The notes beneath the pieces are model-generated. The model made no database searches, was not told where the DNA came from, and worked only from the letters and a program-made list of their open reading frames with translations. Shown here in pieces: positions 15,642-59,945 of a stretch of DNA of 59,945 nt. The DNA comes from Candidatus Acutalibacter stercorigallinarum. Lineage in GTDB: Bacteria > Bacillota > Clostridia > Oscillospirales > Acutalibacteraceae. A program made the position numbers and the translations under genes. Within the stretch, counting starts at the first letter, position 1. Each line of letters starts with the position of its first letter. The DNA is taken from positions 1 through 59,945 of the forward strand of contig DXIW01000031.1 of the NCBI GenBank assembly GCA_019112625.1. The letters run 5' to 3'.

Positions 15642-17435
15642 ATGGGACTGTTTGGAAAAAAGGAAAAGAAGTCCCCGGCGGAGTATATCGCCGAGGGCCG
15701 GGCGCTCTTCGACCAGGGCCGCTACGGCAAGGCGGTCTTCGCGCTCCTCAAGGCCTCCGGCAAGGAGAACGGCGAGGGCGACTACTGGCTGGGCCGCTGC
15801 TACCTGGCCATGGATGAGGAGGACGGCAAAGCCCCCAGCAAGGGCGCCAAGCGGTATCTCCAATTCGCCGCCGACGACGGCCACAAGGAGGCCGCCCGCC
15901 TCCTGGCGGAGGTCTACGGCATGGAGGAATACCGCGCCCAGGCCGGGGAGCCGGAACCGCCCCGGCCCGCCCCTGCCCAGCCTGCCGTCCCCGCCCCCGC
16001 CCCGCCCGCACCGGCCCCCCAGCCGGTCCCCGTCCCCGACGACCCGGACGTCCTGTTCCAGCAGGGCGTGGCCGCCTACCAGGAAGAGGACTACGCGACC
16101 GCCCTGGCCCTCTTCGAGCAGCTGGCCCAGCGGGACCACGTGGAGGCCCAGTACAACACCGGGGTCCTGTACTACCACGGCCACGGCACGGCGGCGGACC
16201 CGGCGAAGGCCCTGTACTGGTTCCAGCGGGCCGCGGGCTGGGGCCACCGGGAGTCCCAGTACAACTGCGGCGTTCTGTACAAGGCCGGCCGGGGTACCGC
16301 CCCCGACCTGGCCGCCGCCCGCTCCTGGTTCGAGAAGGCCGCCGCCCAGGGCCACCAGGGGGCCCAGCAGGCCCTGGCCGCTTTGGACGCCCCCGCGTCC
16401 CAGGAGGAAGACCCCGCCGCCCTGTTCCGCCAGGGGGTGGAGGCCTACGACGCCGGGGACTACGAGACCGCCCTCTCCCTGTTCGAAGAGGGGGCCGCCC
16501 AGGGGGACCCCCAGGCCCAGTACAACTGCGCCATCATGTACGACAACGGCCAGGGCGCGATGGAAGATAAGTCCACGGCTCTGTACTGGTACGAGCAGGC
16601 TGCGGGCCATGGCCACCCCGAAGCCCAATTCAATGCCGCCGTGATGTACGACCAGGGCCAGGGCGCCCCCGTGGACAAGGCCAAGGCCCTCTATTGGTAC
16701 GAGAAAGCCGCCGCTCAGGGGGAGCCCACCGCCCAATTCAACTGCGGCGAGATGTACTTCCAGGGGGAGGGCACGGCCCAGGACCAGGCCAAAGCCCTGT
16801 ACTGGTACCAGCAGGCCGCCCAGCAGGGCCACAGCGGCGCCCAGCACAACTGCGGCGTCATGTACCAAAGCGGCTTCGGCACCCCGGTGGACCTGGAAAA
16901 AGCCCTCTCCTGGTATGAAAAGGCCGCCGAGCAGGGCAACACCATGTCCCAGGTCAACTGCGGCAGCATGTACCTGGCGGGGCAGGGCACACCCGTAGAC
17001 AAGGCCAAGGCCTTTTCCTGGTTCGAAAAAGCCGCCCGGCTGGGGGATGTGCGGGCCCAGTACAACTGCGGTCTCATGTGCGACATAGGCGCCGGCGTCC
17101 CCCAGGACCAGGCCAAGGCCCTCTATTGGTACGAGAAAGCCGGGGAGCAGGGCTACGCCGACGCCCAGTACAACTGCGGGTACATGTACTACCTGGGCGA
17201 GGGCACCGACCCGGACAAGGACCGGGCCTACGCCTGGTACGAGAAAGCGGCCCAGCAGGGCTTCCCCAAGGCCCTGCTGGCCTGCGCCAAAATGTGCCTG
17301 TGGGGCGAGGGCAGGGAAAAGGATGCGGAGAAAGACGAGAAGCTGGCCCTGGAGTACCTGGACCAGGCCGTCCAGTCCGGCGACCCCAAAGTCAGCGAGA
17401 AAGCCCAGCAGACCCTCATGGAAATCCTCCCATAG
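15642..17435 (+). CDS. Sel1/TPR-repeat protein
   Basis: A 597-residue soluble protein with no signal peptide. Residues 1-105 hold a degenerate TPR/Sel1 unit, followed by a Pro/Ala-rich linker (about 105-130) and then two modules, each opening with a TPR-like helix pair (LFQQGVAAYQEEDYATALAL and LFRQGVEAYDAGDYETALSL) followed by 36-residue Sel1 repeats: two in the first block, eight in the second. Most repeats read AQYNCGxMY...ALYWYEKAA, so a Cys recurs about every 36 residues. Sel1 arrays scaffold protein complexes. AGGAGGG six bases before the ATG fixes the start. Confidence 0.9.
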   Translation: MGLFGKKEKKSPAEYIAEGRALFDQGRYGKAVFALLKASGKENGEGDYWLGRCYLAMDEEDGKAPSKGAKRYLQFAADDGHKEAARLLAEVYGMEEYRAQAGEPEPPRPAPAQPAVPAPAPPAPAPQPVPVPDDPDVLFQQGVAAYQEEDYATALALFEQLAQRDHVEAQYNTGVLYYHGHGTAADPAKALYWFQRAAGWGHRESQYNCGVLYKAGRGTAPDLAAARSWFEKAAAQGHQGAQQALAALDAPASQEEDPAALFRQGVEAYDAGDYETALSLFEEGAAQGDPQAQYNCAIMYDNGQGAMEDKSTALYWYEQAAGHGHPEAQFNAAVMYDQGQGAPVDKAKALYWYEKAAAQGEPTAQFNCGEMYFQGEGTAQDQAKALYWYQQAAQQGHSGAQHNCGVMYQSGFGTPVDLEKALSWYEKAAEQGNTMSQVNCGSMYLAGQGTPVDKAKAFSWFEKAARLGDVRAQYNCGLMCDIGAGVPQDQAKALYWYEKAGEQGYADAQYNCGYMYYLGEGTDPDKDRAYAWYEKAAQQGFPKALLACAKMCLWGEGREKDAEKDEKLALEYLDQAVQSGDPKVSEKAQQTLMEILP

Positions 17436-19213: not shown

Positions 19214-19846
19214 TCAGCTGGCTCTTGTCCCGGCCTCCAGGGCGTCCACCCGCTTTTCCAGGGCGGTGATGCGCTCGGCGTTCATCACCACGCCGTCGGC
19301 GACCTGGGCGATCTCCTTCCCGGCCTTGGATTCCAGCAGCACGTTGAAGCCCCGGGCCATCTCCTCCCGCATCTCGGAGAACATGGCGGCCATGGTCTCG
19401 TTCTGCTGGCCGATCACCTCCGCCAGCTGGGTACTCAGGTTTCCGGCGATCCGGTCCTCCATGGCGGCCAGCTTGGCGTCCATCTTCTCATCCAGCTTGG
19501 TCTCCATCGTTTCGAACTTGGCATCCATGCGTTCGTCCAGCCTGGTCTCCATAGCTTCCATCCTGGCGTCCATGCGCTTGTCCAGCCGGTCCTCCATGGC
19601 GGCCAGCTTGGTATCCATCTTTTCGTCCAGCTTGGCCTCCAGCCTGGTCTCCATGGCTGCCAGCTTGGCATCCCAACGGGAGTCCATATCTGCCATCTTG
19701 GCGTCCCACCTGGAGTCCATGTCCGCCATCTTGGCATCCCAACGGGAGTCCATATCCGCCAGCTTAGCGTCCCACCTGGAGTCCATATCCGCCATCTTGG
19801 CATCCAGCAGCTGTTCGATGGCCTGTAAAAGTTGCTGATTCTCCAT
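19214..19846 (-). CDS. long coiled-coil protein with 11-residue tandem repeats
   Basis: A 210-residue acidic protein predicted to be nearly all coiled coil. Residues 15-58 are four near-identical copies of DAK(M/L)ADMDSRW, and degenerate 11-residue repeats (LAAMETRLEAK, DEKMDTKLAAM and so on) continue to about 140. Eleven-residue (hendecad) periodicity gives right-handed coiled coils. The last part, MREEMARGFNVLLESKAGKE to KRVDALEAG, is an ordinary coiled coil. The ATG at 19846 has AGGAGG eight bases upstream. No signal peptide or membrane span. Function unknown; a scaffold or phage-tail-like assembly factor is possible but unsupported. Confidence 0.75.
   Translation of the reverse strand: MENQQLLQAIEQLLDAKMADMDSRWDAKLADMDSRWDAKMADMDSRWDAKMADMDSRWDAKLAAMETRLEAKLDEKMDTKLAAMEDRLDKRMDARMEAMETRLDERMDAKFETMETKLDEKMDAKLAAMEDRIAGNLSTQLAEVIGQQNETMAAMFSEMREEMARGFNVLLESKAGKEIAQVADGVVMNAERITALEKRVDALEAGTRAS
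19673..19804 (-). repeat. four tandem 33-bp repeats inside the coiled-coil gene
   Basis: Four consecutive 33-bp units encoding DAK(M/L)ADMDSRW. Units 1/3 and 2/4 share base variants (GAGTCCATATC versus GAGTCCATGTC types), suggesting duplication of a pair. Copy number may vary between strains. Confidence 0.85.
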
Positions 19847-57452: not shown

Positions 57453-59258
57453 TCAGTAGCGCTCGTAGTAGTTGGCGAACACCTTGCAGGCCGCCGCCCG
57501 CTCGGTGTAGCCCTGGGGGTCAAAGCTGTTTTCCCCCACCCCGCTGATGAGCCCGGCGTCCCGGCAGGCGTACACCGCCTCCCTGGCCCAGCTGCTGATC
57601 TCACTGTCGTCCGCGAAGGTGCCCGAATTGCTGGAGCTCAGGTTCCCGTACTTCATCAGGATCACGCACATGGCCTCCCGGCTGATGGGCTCCTCGGGCT
57701 CAAAGGCGGTGGCGCTCACCCCGTTGATGTACCCCATAGAGGAGGCCCACTGGATAGCTTTTGCGTAGTAGATGTCCGGGTCCACGTCCTGGAAGGCCGT
57801 CTCCCCGGAGTAGCTGTCCAGGTCCACCCCGTCCATGTTGGCCAGCGCTTTTACGAAATCCCCCCGGGAGATGTTCTCCGTGGGCTCAAAGCTGCCGTTG
57901 CCGCTGCCGCCGAAAATGCCGTATCCCACGGCCCGGTCCACATCGTCAAAGAACCAGTCCTCGCTGGTAAAGTCGGTGAAGATGGCCCCATTGGAGAGCA
58001 CCGTGGCCATGGCCTCCCCGCTCTTCTGCCCGTCCAGAATGGACACGGCCCGGTAGGTGAGCCCCACCATATAAATAGGCCCGGTGTAGGGGGTGCTGTC
58101 CTCGGTGGGGGTGGTGTTGTCGGTGGTGTAGTAGATGGTCTCCTCCTCGGAGTTGGCGGTCATGGTCACATAGCCGTCCTCATAGGAGATTACCGGGGTG
58201 TCGGGCATGTCCAGGTCGCCGGTGATCTCCACATACAGGGAGGAGATGTACCCGGTGGCCCCGTTGCTGGGCAGCACGATCTCGTACCACAACGTAGAGC
58301 TCTGGCCGCCGCTCACAATGTTCTGGCCCTCCTCCTGGCCGGTGACCAGGATCTGGGTGCCATAGGACAGGGTGGTGAGCACCGAGGACTGGGTGTTGGG
58401 CTGGGAGCGGACGTTCACCCCGCTGCCGGTGACCCGGGCGTTGGTGTGGCTGTCAGAGCCGCCCCCGTTGCCGCCGCCATAGCCGGCCCCCACCTCATAG
58501 CCGATGCCCTGGGCCTTCAGGTAGTCCCGCACCGTGGCCGCGTTCACAAAGCCCTCGTTCTGCAGGGTGTCGCTGTAGGCCAGGGGGGTGCCGTCGTCGT
58601 TATAGGCGATGCCGTCGGACCCGATGGTGTAGCCGTCCACCACGGTGTCCACGTCGTACTGGTAGTCGGTGTAGTGGTACATGTTCCCGTCAAACTCATA
58701 CCAGCCATTCACGGGGAACAGCAGCCCGCAGTCGAACAGATGCCACTCCGACCAGCCCCGGCTGTATACGCTGTCGTACACCATGTCGGTGCCGTAGGTG
58801 CTGTTGTCGGTGACCATCCCGTTGCCCACGTAAATGCCCACGTGGCCGTAGGGGTACTGGTAGTCGTAGGGGTCCATCATGGTGACGGACAGCCCGTGGA
58901 TGCGGGGCAGCTCGTCCAGGCTGCCGTGCCAGATGGTGTTCAGGCGCACCTGGGAGCTGGCGCCCCCCATGCAGGAGTAAATGCCGTGGTCCGTAAAGAA
59001 GGCGTACAGCAGCCCCGCGCAGTCAGAGGCCCGGGTGTCGCCGTACTGCTCCCCCTTGCCGCCGTATTGGTAGACCCAGCCATCCCGCCAGGCCATCAGG
59101 CCGTGCTCCGCGAATTCCAACGAGGTGACGCCTTCGGCGGCGGAGGCCGTAAGCCCCGGTACCGCGTAAGCGGCCCCCAGCAAAAGCACCACCGCCAGAA
59201 GCAGACTGAACATTCGCATGGCCTGCCGTTTCATGGTCGCGTGTCGTTTCATCGTCAT
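57453..59258 (-). CDS. secreted NlpC/P60-like, SH3, CHB_HEX_C-type, SLH surface protein
   Basis: A 601-residue exported protein. Signal peptide 1-40 (cleavage after TASA). NlpC/P60-like domain about 45-180 with Cys80 (ASDCAGLLYAFF) and His139 (YPYGHVGIYVGNG). A WYEFDGNMYHYTD wall-binding-like repeat (186-220), Gly-rich linker (258-270), SH3b (275-345), a chitobiase-C-terminal-like repeat (352-420), and three SLH modules (425-601) that tether it to the wall. It should cut peptidoglycan at the cell surface. I take the ATG at 59258. The tandem array begins about 115 bases upstream of it. Confidence 0.85.
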   Translation of the reverse strand: MTMKRHATMKRQAMRMFSLLLAVVLLLGAAYAVPGLTASAAEGVTSLEFAEHGLMAWRDGWVYQYGGKGEQYGDTRASDCAGLLYAFFTDHGIYSCMGGASSQVRLNTIWHGSLDELPRIHGLSVTMMDPYDYQYPYGHVGIYVGNGMVTDNSTYGTDMVYDSVYSRGWSEWHLFDCGLLFPVNGWYEFDGNMYHYTDYQYDVDTVVDGYTIGSDGIAYNDDGTPLAYSDTLQNEGFVNAATVRDYLKAQGIGYEVGAGYGGGNGGGSDSHTNARVTGSGVNVRSQPNTQSSVLTTLSYGTQILVTGQEEGQNIVSGGQSSTLWYEIVLPSNGATGYISSLYVEITGDLDMPDTPVISYEDGYVTMTANSEEETIYYTTDNTTPTEDSTPYTGPIYMVGLTYRAVSILDGQKSGEAMATVLSNGAIFTDFTSEDWFFDDVDRAVGYGIFGGSGNGSFEPTENISRGDFVKALANMDGVDLDSYSGETAFQDVDPDIYYAKAIQWASSMGYINGVSATAFEPEEPISREAMCVILMKYGNLSSSNSGTFADDSEISSWAREAVYACRDAGLISGVGENSFDPQGYTERAAACKVFANYYERY

Positions 59259-59288
59259 AAAAATACCATTCCTTTCCAAAAGCCAAAA

Positions 59289-59340
59289 CACCTTTCCAGG
59301 TGAACGGGGAACAGCTCCCCAAAGCGGGGAATCACTCCCC
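59289..59340 (-). other. leader hairpins of the surface-protein gene
   Basis: GGGGAACAGCTCCCC (59306-59320) and GGGGAATCACTCCCC (59326-59340) are repeated 20 bases apart, with CACCT/AGGTG (59289-59302) next to the ribosome site. No known riboswitch is recognised. A clear -35/-10 pair was not found. Confidence 0.4.
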
Positions 59341-59373
59341 TGTAAAGTTTTTGGACTTGTCATCTGATTTTCC

Positions 59374-59945
59374 CGGCTCCCACAGGGGAACCACCGCCCG
59401 GCTCACCGGAACTCTCTCGCCCGGTCTCCGCCCGGCCCGAATCCCTCCCGAGACCCACGGCCCAGCGCCGCCGGAACCATCCCGGCTCATTTTCTACCCG
59501 GCCGCCAGCTCCCCGAAGGGCACCCGCCGCCCGGCACACCGGAACTCATTCGTCCCAGCTCCCGCCCGGCCCGTGCCCCTCCCGAGACCCGCGGCCCAGC
59601 TCCACCGGAACCAACCCGGCTCAACTTCTACCCGGCGCCAGCTCCCCGAAGGGCAACCGCCGCCCGGCTCACCGGAACTCACTTGCCCCAGCTCCCGCCC
59701 AGCCCGTGCCTCTCCCGAGACCCGCAGCCCGGCTCCACCGGAACCAACCCGGCTTAATTTCCATCCGACCGCCAGCTCCCCACAGGGCAACCGCCGCCCG
59801 GCACACCGGAACTCCCTCATCCCGGCTCCCGCCCGGCCCGAATCCCTCCCGAGACCCGCAGCCCAGCGCTGCCGAAACCATCCCGGCTCATTTTCTACCC
59901 GGCGCCAGCTCCCCGAAGGGCAACCACCGCCCGGCTCACCGGAAC
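59374..59945. repeat. tandem array of about 133-bp GC-rich units, open at the right edge
   Basis: The marker CACCGGAACTC recurs at 59404, 59537, 59670 and 59804 and, cut by the window edge, at 59937, giving periods of 133, 133, 134 and 133. A second marker, CCGGAACC, lies about 66 bases after each one (59471, 59605, 59738; CCGAAACC at 59872). Units share blocks such as CTCCCGAGACCC, CCCGGCT and GCCAGCTCCCC and differ at scattered bases. The period is not a multiple of three, so it is not a coding repeat. Confidence 0.85.

Follow-up and report, generated by a model that had tools for sequence, protein, structure and literature searches.

A large-unit, dimer-based tandem array in the probable mRNA leader of a wall-hydrolase gene of Candidatus Acutalibacter stercorigallinarum

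As of 2015, only two tandem repeats located between a promoter and a start codon had been studied experimentally. Both precede surface-protein genes of Moraxella catarrhalis and have units of 1 to 4 bp: the AGAT repeats of uspA2 (Attia and Hansen 2006) and a G tract (summarized in PMC4679880). The same source states that uspA2 expression is affected by the AGAT repeats of its leader. Longer units are described for Mycobacterium tuberculosis, in which promoter repeats of 54 to 58 bp vary in copy number (VNTR3690; lpdA, cysG, and dop; PMC12817950). Prokaryotic satellites, including unique ones with long repeats, were reviewed by Subirana and Messeguer in 2019 (PMC6749651). Among wall hydrolases, RNase Y of Bacillus subtilis is reported to cleave the cwlO mRNA within the leader and so to make it unstable (Noone et al. 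2014, as cited in PMC7430163), and cwlO is under WalR (PMC6705773).

Here, we describe an array of 133-bp units in Candidatus Acutalibacter stercorigallinarum. The stretch of DNA that we analyzed (the window; 59,945 nucleotides) is one entire contig, C22 of genome G000, and the contig end falls inside the array. The array is very probably a leader-located, dimer-based minisatellite ahead of a wall-hydrolase gene. As in the uspA2 leader, tandem repeats lie between a promoter (putative here) and the start codon of a surface-protein gene. The unit is 4 bp in uspA2 and 133 bp (a 66+67 dimer) here; copy number variation and an expression effect were shown for uspA2 and are predictions here. VNTR3690 has longer intergenic units near a gene, as our array does, and its copy number is linked to expression in M. 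tuberculosis. Its repeats are, however, called promoter elements (lpdA and cysG are leaderless), whereas here the putative promoter is on the far side and the array would be transcribed. The Clostridium difficile satellites in the 2019 review are likewise long-unit tandem arrays unique in the genome; the sections of the review on which we draw describe no leader position or dimer structure. C. difficile satellites of 66 to 67 nt are CRISPR arrays according to that review, but the half-units of 66 and 67 bp here are not, as they have no long shared repeat. The likeness to cwlO, an analogy, would lie in a D,L-endopeptidase-type wall hydrolase under putative WalR control. Post-transcriptional control through the leader is reported for cwlO and is proposed here; the material cited does not describe the cwlO leader as repetitive, unlike the array leader of the present gene. 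The first-pass annotation of this DNA knew of no described element of this kind. Promoter-to-start-codon repeats and promoter VNTRs are in fact described, with units of 1, 4, and 54 to 58 bp in the sources above, and the array is a larger-unit form of such leader or promoter satellites. Among the matches listed by a literature search (open-licence papers; titles and abstract starts), none concerned a satellite of large units in the leader of a wall-hydrolase gene.

Table 1. Features of the array locus (unprefixed positions are in the window; L004 positions are on the partner contig, C38)
Feature	Position	Strand	Remark
NlpC/P60-SH3-SLH gene	57453..59258	-	Downstream of the leader; putative start codon, ATG at 59258
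Gap between array and putative start codon	59259..59373	-	GGAAAGGAAT, ribosome-binding-like stretch (by eye)
Tandem array, window part	59374..59945	-	Read as mRNA leader; goes on into G000:C38, L004:84 to ~335
Partial unit	59374-59405	-	Array edge nearest the NlpC gene
Full units	59406-59538, 59539-59671, 59672-59805, 59806-59938	-	Followed by the start of the next unit
Four full window units	59406..59938	-	mRNA-sense fold z of -2.2 to -3.7 against dinucleotide shuffles; plus strand about +1.2 (three of these four)
Exact 83-bp shared end	59863..59945	.	Equals the first 83 bases of C38; C38 holds the array remainder, the promoters, and the neighbor gene
Transglutaminase-SLH gene	L004:722-2398 (C38)	Divergent from NlpC gene	Far side of the array

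TRF called the array in the window at 59384-59945, with a period of 133, 4.2 copies, and 85% matches; visual inspection puts the beginning of the repeat near 59374. From the letters alone, it had been described as at least four similar but nonidentical units, of a length not divisible by three, that run past the window edge. All of this held. Within the window, the unit lengths are 133, 133, 134, and 133 bp, and the same array resumes on a second contig, C38, with a unit of 132 bp followed by a decayed last unit. The whole array thus has at least six units, or about 0.82 kb if C22 and C38 join at their overlap, six being a minimum, since the assembly is interrupted within the array. Markers of the CCGGAAC type stand at 59406, 59471, 59539, 59605, 59672, 59738, 59806, 59872, and 59939. 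Two of them per unit, about 66 bases apart, had been noted, and the spacing measured along the array is 65 to 68 bases. The marker at 59872 is a variant, CCGAAAC, which occurs once among the markers of the window array. With imperfect copies arranged head to tail at one locus, the array has the build of a minisatellite, and it would be a VNTR if copy number varies between strains.

Each 133-bp unit is a diverged 66+67 dimer of two halves, A and B, as had been suspected. The A and B halves are 59 to 71% alike, and halves of the same class are 74 to 93% alike. For three of the six units, the A-B alignment score was reached by 2, 0, and 6 of 1,000 shuffles, and the A-B identity in the three units tested was 64 to 66%, versus a shuffled mean of 60%. 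On C38, TRF also reported a period of 66 at 65% matches. A period of 267 was called on the window array as well, with a higher TRF score than that of period 133. We do not claim the tetramer that this score would suggest, since the half-by-half identities lacked a clean alternation.

The array sits between two divergent surface-protein genes, an NlpC/P60-SH3-SLH gene in the window, in line with the earlier placement of the array upstream of such a gene, and a transglutaminase-SLH gene on C38. The NlpC gene product has Pfam matches to NlpC/P60, bacterial SH3, a chitobiase C-terminal-like domain, and three SLH stretches; the NlpC/P60 match, at 23.9 bits, is just above the Pfam cut-off of 23. We searched for both flanking proteins in the genome itself and in 28 congeners, using an NlpC protein query that starts at 59237. 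The two genes were divergent on one contig in 22 of the 28 (the others being G004, G005, G009, G011, G015, and G017). The distance between the aligned parts, which includes unaligned N termini, was 269 to 658 bases in the 22 congeners versus about 1,346 here. Between the array and the NlpC start codon, the mRNA strand also carries a weak terminator-like hairpin at 59302-59289 (CACCTGGAAAGGTG followed by TTTT), a possible attenuator, which we count against the leader reading proposed below.

In a search of the genome itself, bases 1 to 311 of C38 matched the array. On C38, the end of unit 4 is followed by unit 5, a decaying unit 6, roughly 390 bases outside the array, and then the transglutaminase-SLH gene. 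The adjacency of C22 and C38 is strongly supported. A false join, with an array that is real or chimeric on contigs that are not neighbors, would suit a draft of 70 contigs in which C22 and C38 both end inside a repeat. It is nevertheless very unlikely: the units are nonidentical, the exact overlap includes the variant CCGAAAC marker, and the two flanking genes lie side by side in most relatives. Because same-class halves differ by 7 to 26% and the gene pair is adjacent in 22 of 28 relatives, the array itself is unlikely to be the assembly artefact of which the first-pass annotation had warned; its reality is further borne out by the TRF call and the continuation on C38.

Several known kinds of element were considered and rejected. 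CRISPR had already been dismissed because of unit length and the lack of unique spacers, and our comparison agrees: the units are contiguous, without spacers, and there is no long repeat common to neighboring halves, which share at most 7 to 11 identical bases in a row (neighboring units share 19 to 39). A dispersed repeat of the REP or MITE type does not fit, as matches in the genome itself were found only at the end of C22 and the start of C38. Nor does a phage or plasmid iteron array: blastn gave no match in phages or plasmids, viral contigs gave none either, and from their translations the neighbors read as his genes and, downstream of the transglutaminase-SLH gene on C38, as valS. A scan of the entire window against Rfam yielded no hit at gathering score, and 59200-59945 had none at E <= 1.

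A coding repeat was also considered. On the plus strand, an open frame extends from 59300 up to the right edge of the window, and the frame on C38 is open from the contig start to L004:706, across the array and past both of the promoters described below, as might be expected of a repeat in a proline-rich protein. The plus strand is C-rich, however, and hence poor in stops, and units of 132 to 134 bp rotate the frame. Neither open frame had a Pfam match at E <= 0.1, and the frame on C38, which matches no family, stops shortly ahead of the gene that follows. We regard plus-strand coding as extremely unlikely. The related possibility raised earlier, that the repeat belongs to a gene lying outside the window, is unlikely too, with the array on C38 ending before two divergent promoters.

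Before the NlpC gene, all 28 congeners have a TTGCAA-like -35 element separated by 17 bases from a TAnnnT -10 element, and in all of them a TGTWAC-N5-TGTAA box directly follows the -10 element. The -35 element of the congeners starts 80 to 185 nt ahead of the NlpC gene, as counted to the first codon in the alignment. In the genome under study, the corresponding promoter (TTGCAA-17-TAAAAT) is on C38 at L004:476-448 on the minus strand, beyond the array, with the WalR-box-like repeat at L004:448-432 (minus). By the same measure, it lies about 1,101 nt from the NlpC gene if the contigs join at 83 bp. One simple consensus scan found no sigma-70-like promoter in the window at 59200-59945 or in the array part of L004, so in sequence the promoter is upstream of the array and none is found between array and gene. 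Because the conserved promoter lies on the far side and none was found between, the array is most likely within the transcribed leader, with the G-rich strand as RNA.

A second promoter-like site, on the plus strand at L004:632-660, precedes the transglutaminase-SLH gene. The two divergent promoters both lie beyond the array, close to each other at L004:448-660; between them, at L004:515-619, are degenerate tandem repeats of 21 and 31 bp of the GGGCGATTTTGGGC type. This arrangement bears on the idea that the array acts as DNA, its units binding a protein or setting the spacing of the two divergent promoters, with no need for the array to be transcribed. Such a role would be in keeping with the place of the array between divergently oriented genes for surface proteins and with the conserved blocks in the unit alignment, such as the CCGG markers. 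The array, however, parts a promoter from its gene, not one promoter from the other, and we consider a DNA-level element quite improbable.

The box after the -10 element fits the WalR consensus TGTWAH-N5-TGTWAH as given in PMC9210968, which also places WalRK in all Firmicutes. The pattern TGTWAM-N5-TGTWAM had three exact sites in the genome under study versus one for a reversed-pattern control. Besides the site at the NlpC gene, a second (L123:1501-1517 on C42) adjoins an ABC-ATPase gene and the FtsX gene that comes after it, a pair that reads as ftsEX, with the box oppositely oriented. The third (L124:1501-1517 on C57) precedes an adenosine deaminase gene followed by a gene for a PcsB-like coiled-coil M23 peptidase. 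In B. subtilis, cwlO and lytE are under WalR and FtsEX is the partner of CwlO, as stated in PMC6705773 and PMC7299342, and an FtsEX-PcsB pairing is reported for the pneumococcus (PMC5061712). The three sites (NlpC/P60-SLH, FtsE-like/FtsX, and adenosine deaminase-PcsB-like M23) may represent a candidate WalR regulon of wall hydrolases, three being a small number.

We then compared the predicted folding of the array with that of shuffled and control sequences. In the mRNA sense, five of the six units had z scores of -2.57, -3.25, -2.24, -3.66, and -3.64 against dinucleotide shuffles, while three of the six gave +1.28, +1.23, and +1.20 as plus-strand sequence. For the 686 nt at 59260-59945 (mRNA sense), z was -6.27 (20 shuffles). 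The 111 nt from the promoter to the array had a z of -3.1; the 116 nt after the array showed no special folding (z of -0.2), nor did the leaders of the 28 relatives (mean z of -0.15). Among random 133-mers of the window, z <= -2.24 was reached by 13 of 240 and z <= -3.25 by 3 of 240; the corresponding counts for G-rich skewed 133-mers were 9 and 1 of 160. The folding signal of the units amounts to about one observation, because the units are copies of one another. Six motifs of the G-quadruplex type are present on the mRNA strand of 59374-59945, versus 2.1 expected (2 of 500 shuffles reached six), and the other strand of the same interval has none.

Covariation among the units gave no clear signal in either direction. 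Paired cells made up 95.5% of the 267 in the consensus structure and no pair had changed on both sides, and all 500 partner shuffles reached every covariation measure. With all columns, column permutation gave P values of 0.066 for the six units and 0.075 for units 1 to 5; when restricted to paired columns, it gave 0.31 and 0.23, respectively. Inverted repeats of 10 bases or more were absent from 59200-59945 and from L004:1-720. The leader RNA is G-rich and predicted to be hairpin-rich. In view of the random-window control and the covariation tests, we tone down the folding signal: the folding is suggestive and falls short of demonstrating selection for it.

A search of relatives had been recommended at the outset, and it yielded no second array; the flanking pair, where adjacent, had a shorter gap. 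No other array was found in the genome itself and 98 relatives by either DNA search or RNA model search. The DNA search matched 2 of these 99 genomes and, among family genomes, 4 of 398, the own genome included in both counts; the RNA model search, with stricter filters, matched only the own genome of the 99. The short matches, in G004, G045, and G138, span 21 to 41 bp (E values of 1.8e-4 to 8.5e-4), and inspection of the G004 site showed no array there. One exact degenerate pattern had no match in genome_contigs (84,980 species, near relatives possibly left out) or in viral contigs. In the own genome, which is 86% complete, there was no second array locus at E <= 0.001. In 27 relatives, TRF found no array with a period of 40 to 500 in the 242,314 bases around the NlpC gene. 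As far as searched, the expansion seems to be confined to Candidatus Acutalibacter stercorigallinarum, as represented by one genome.

We propose that a noncoding, dimer-based minisatellite has expanded in the mRNA leader of the gene for an SLH-anchored NlpC/P60 peptidoglycan hydrolase and would act on the hydrolase post-transcriptionally, a reading to which we give about an even chance. Transcription would start at the conserved TTGCAA-17-TAAAAT promoter, beside the WalR-box-like repeat, cross at least six 133-nt units, and enter the NlpC gene at 59258. Copy number would shift by slippage or unequal recombination. The long structured leader may then alter the stability, processing, or translation of the hydrolase mRNA, an effect that would add to WalR-type control at the promoter. 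Alternatively, slippage and unequal exchange may have multiplied G-rich sequence in a leader under no constraint, giving a minisatellite that is transcribed and has no selected effect. The lack of an array in the other genomes searched, with three short matches of 21 to 41 bp, speaks for such a neutral origin, as do the divergence of the halves, which left no pair altered at both positions, and the nonsignificant permutation tests; neutral expansion would equally lead one to expect presence in a single species. Set against it are the strand-specific folding that beats shuffles, the excess of G-quadruplex-type motifs on the mRNA strand, and a leader lengthened here and short in all 28 relatives, each of which is by itself compatible with neutrality. 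Neutral expansion is a serious contender, if a somewhat less probable one, and the post-transcriptional effect is our best guess, near even with it.

A more specific version of the post-transcriptional reading seems doubtful to us. In it, the leader would consist of about 12 folded RNA modules (six A/B dimers) that serve as a copy-number-adjustable post-transcriptional regulator of a putatively WalR-regulated hydrolase, through contacts with a protein, G-quadruplexes, or an RNase. If this were so, an mRNA leader would have been built from a satellite whose repeat is a structured RNA.

Wall hydrolases are a class of enzymes that cells must keep balanced. If the array does lie in the leader, a single-locus, large-unit satellite separates a conserved promoter from a wall-hydrolase gene, and nature would have provided an experiment on whether a wall hydrolase can be tuned by the length and structure of its leader. 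The locus also illustrates that a key element can go unseen when a contig stops within a repeat, as the promoter beyond the array is visible only on the partner contig. The window has two other TRF arrays, at 16494-17261 (period of 108/216) and 19451-19805 (33/45/66/135), with periods divisible by three, which suggests that these repeats are coding.
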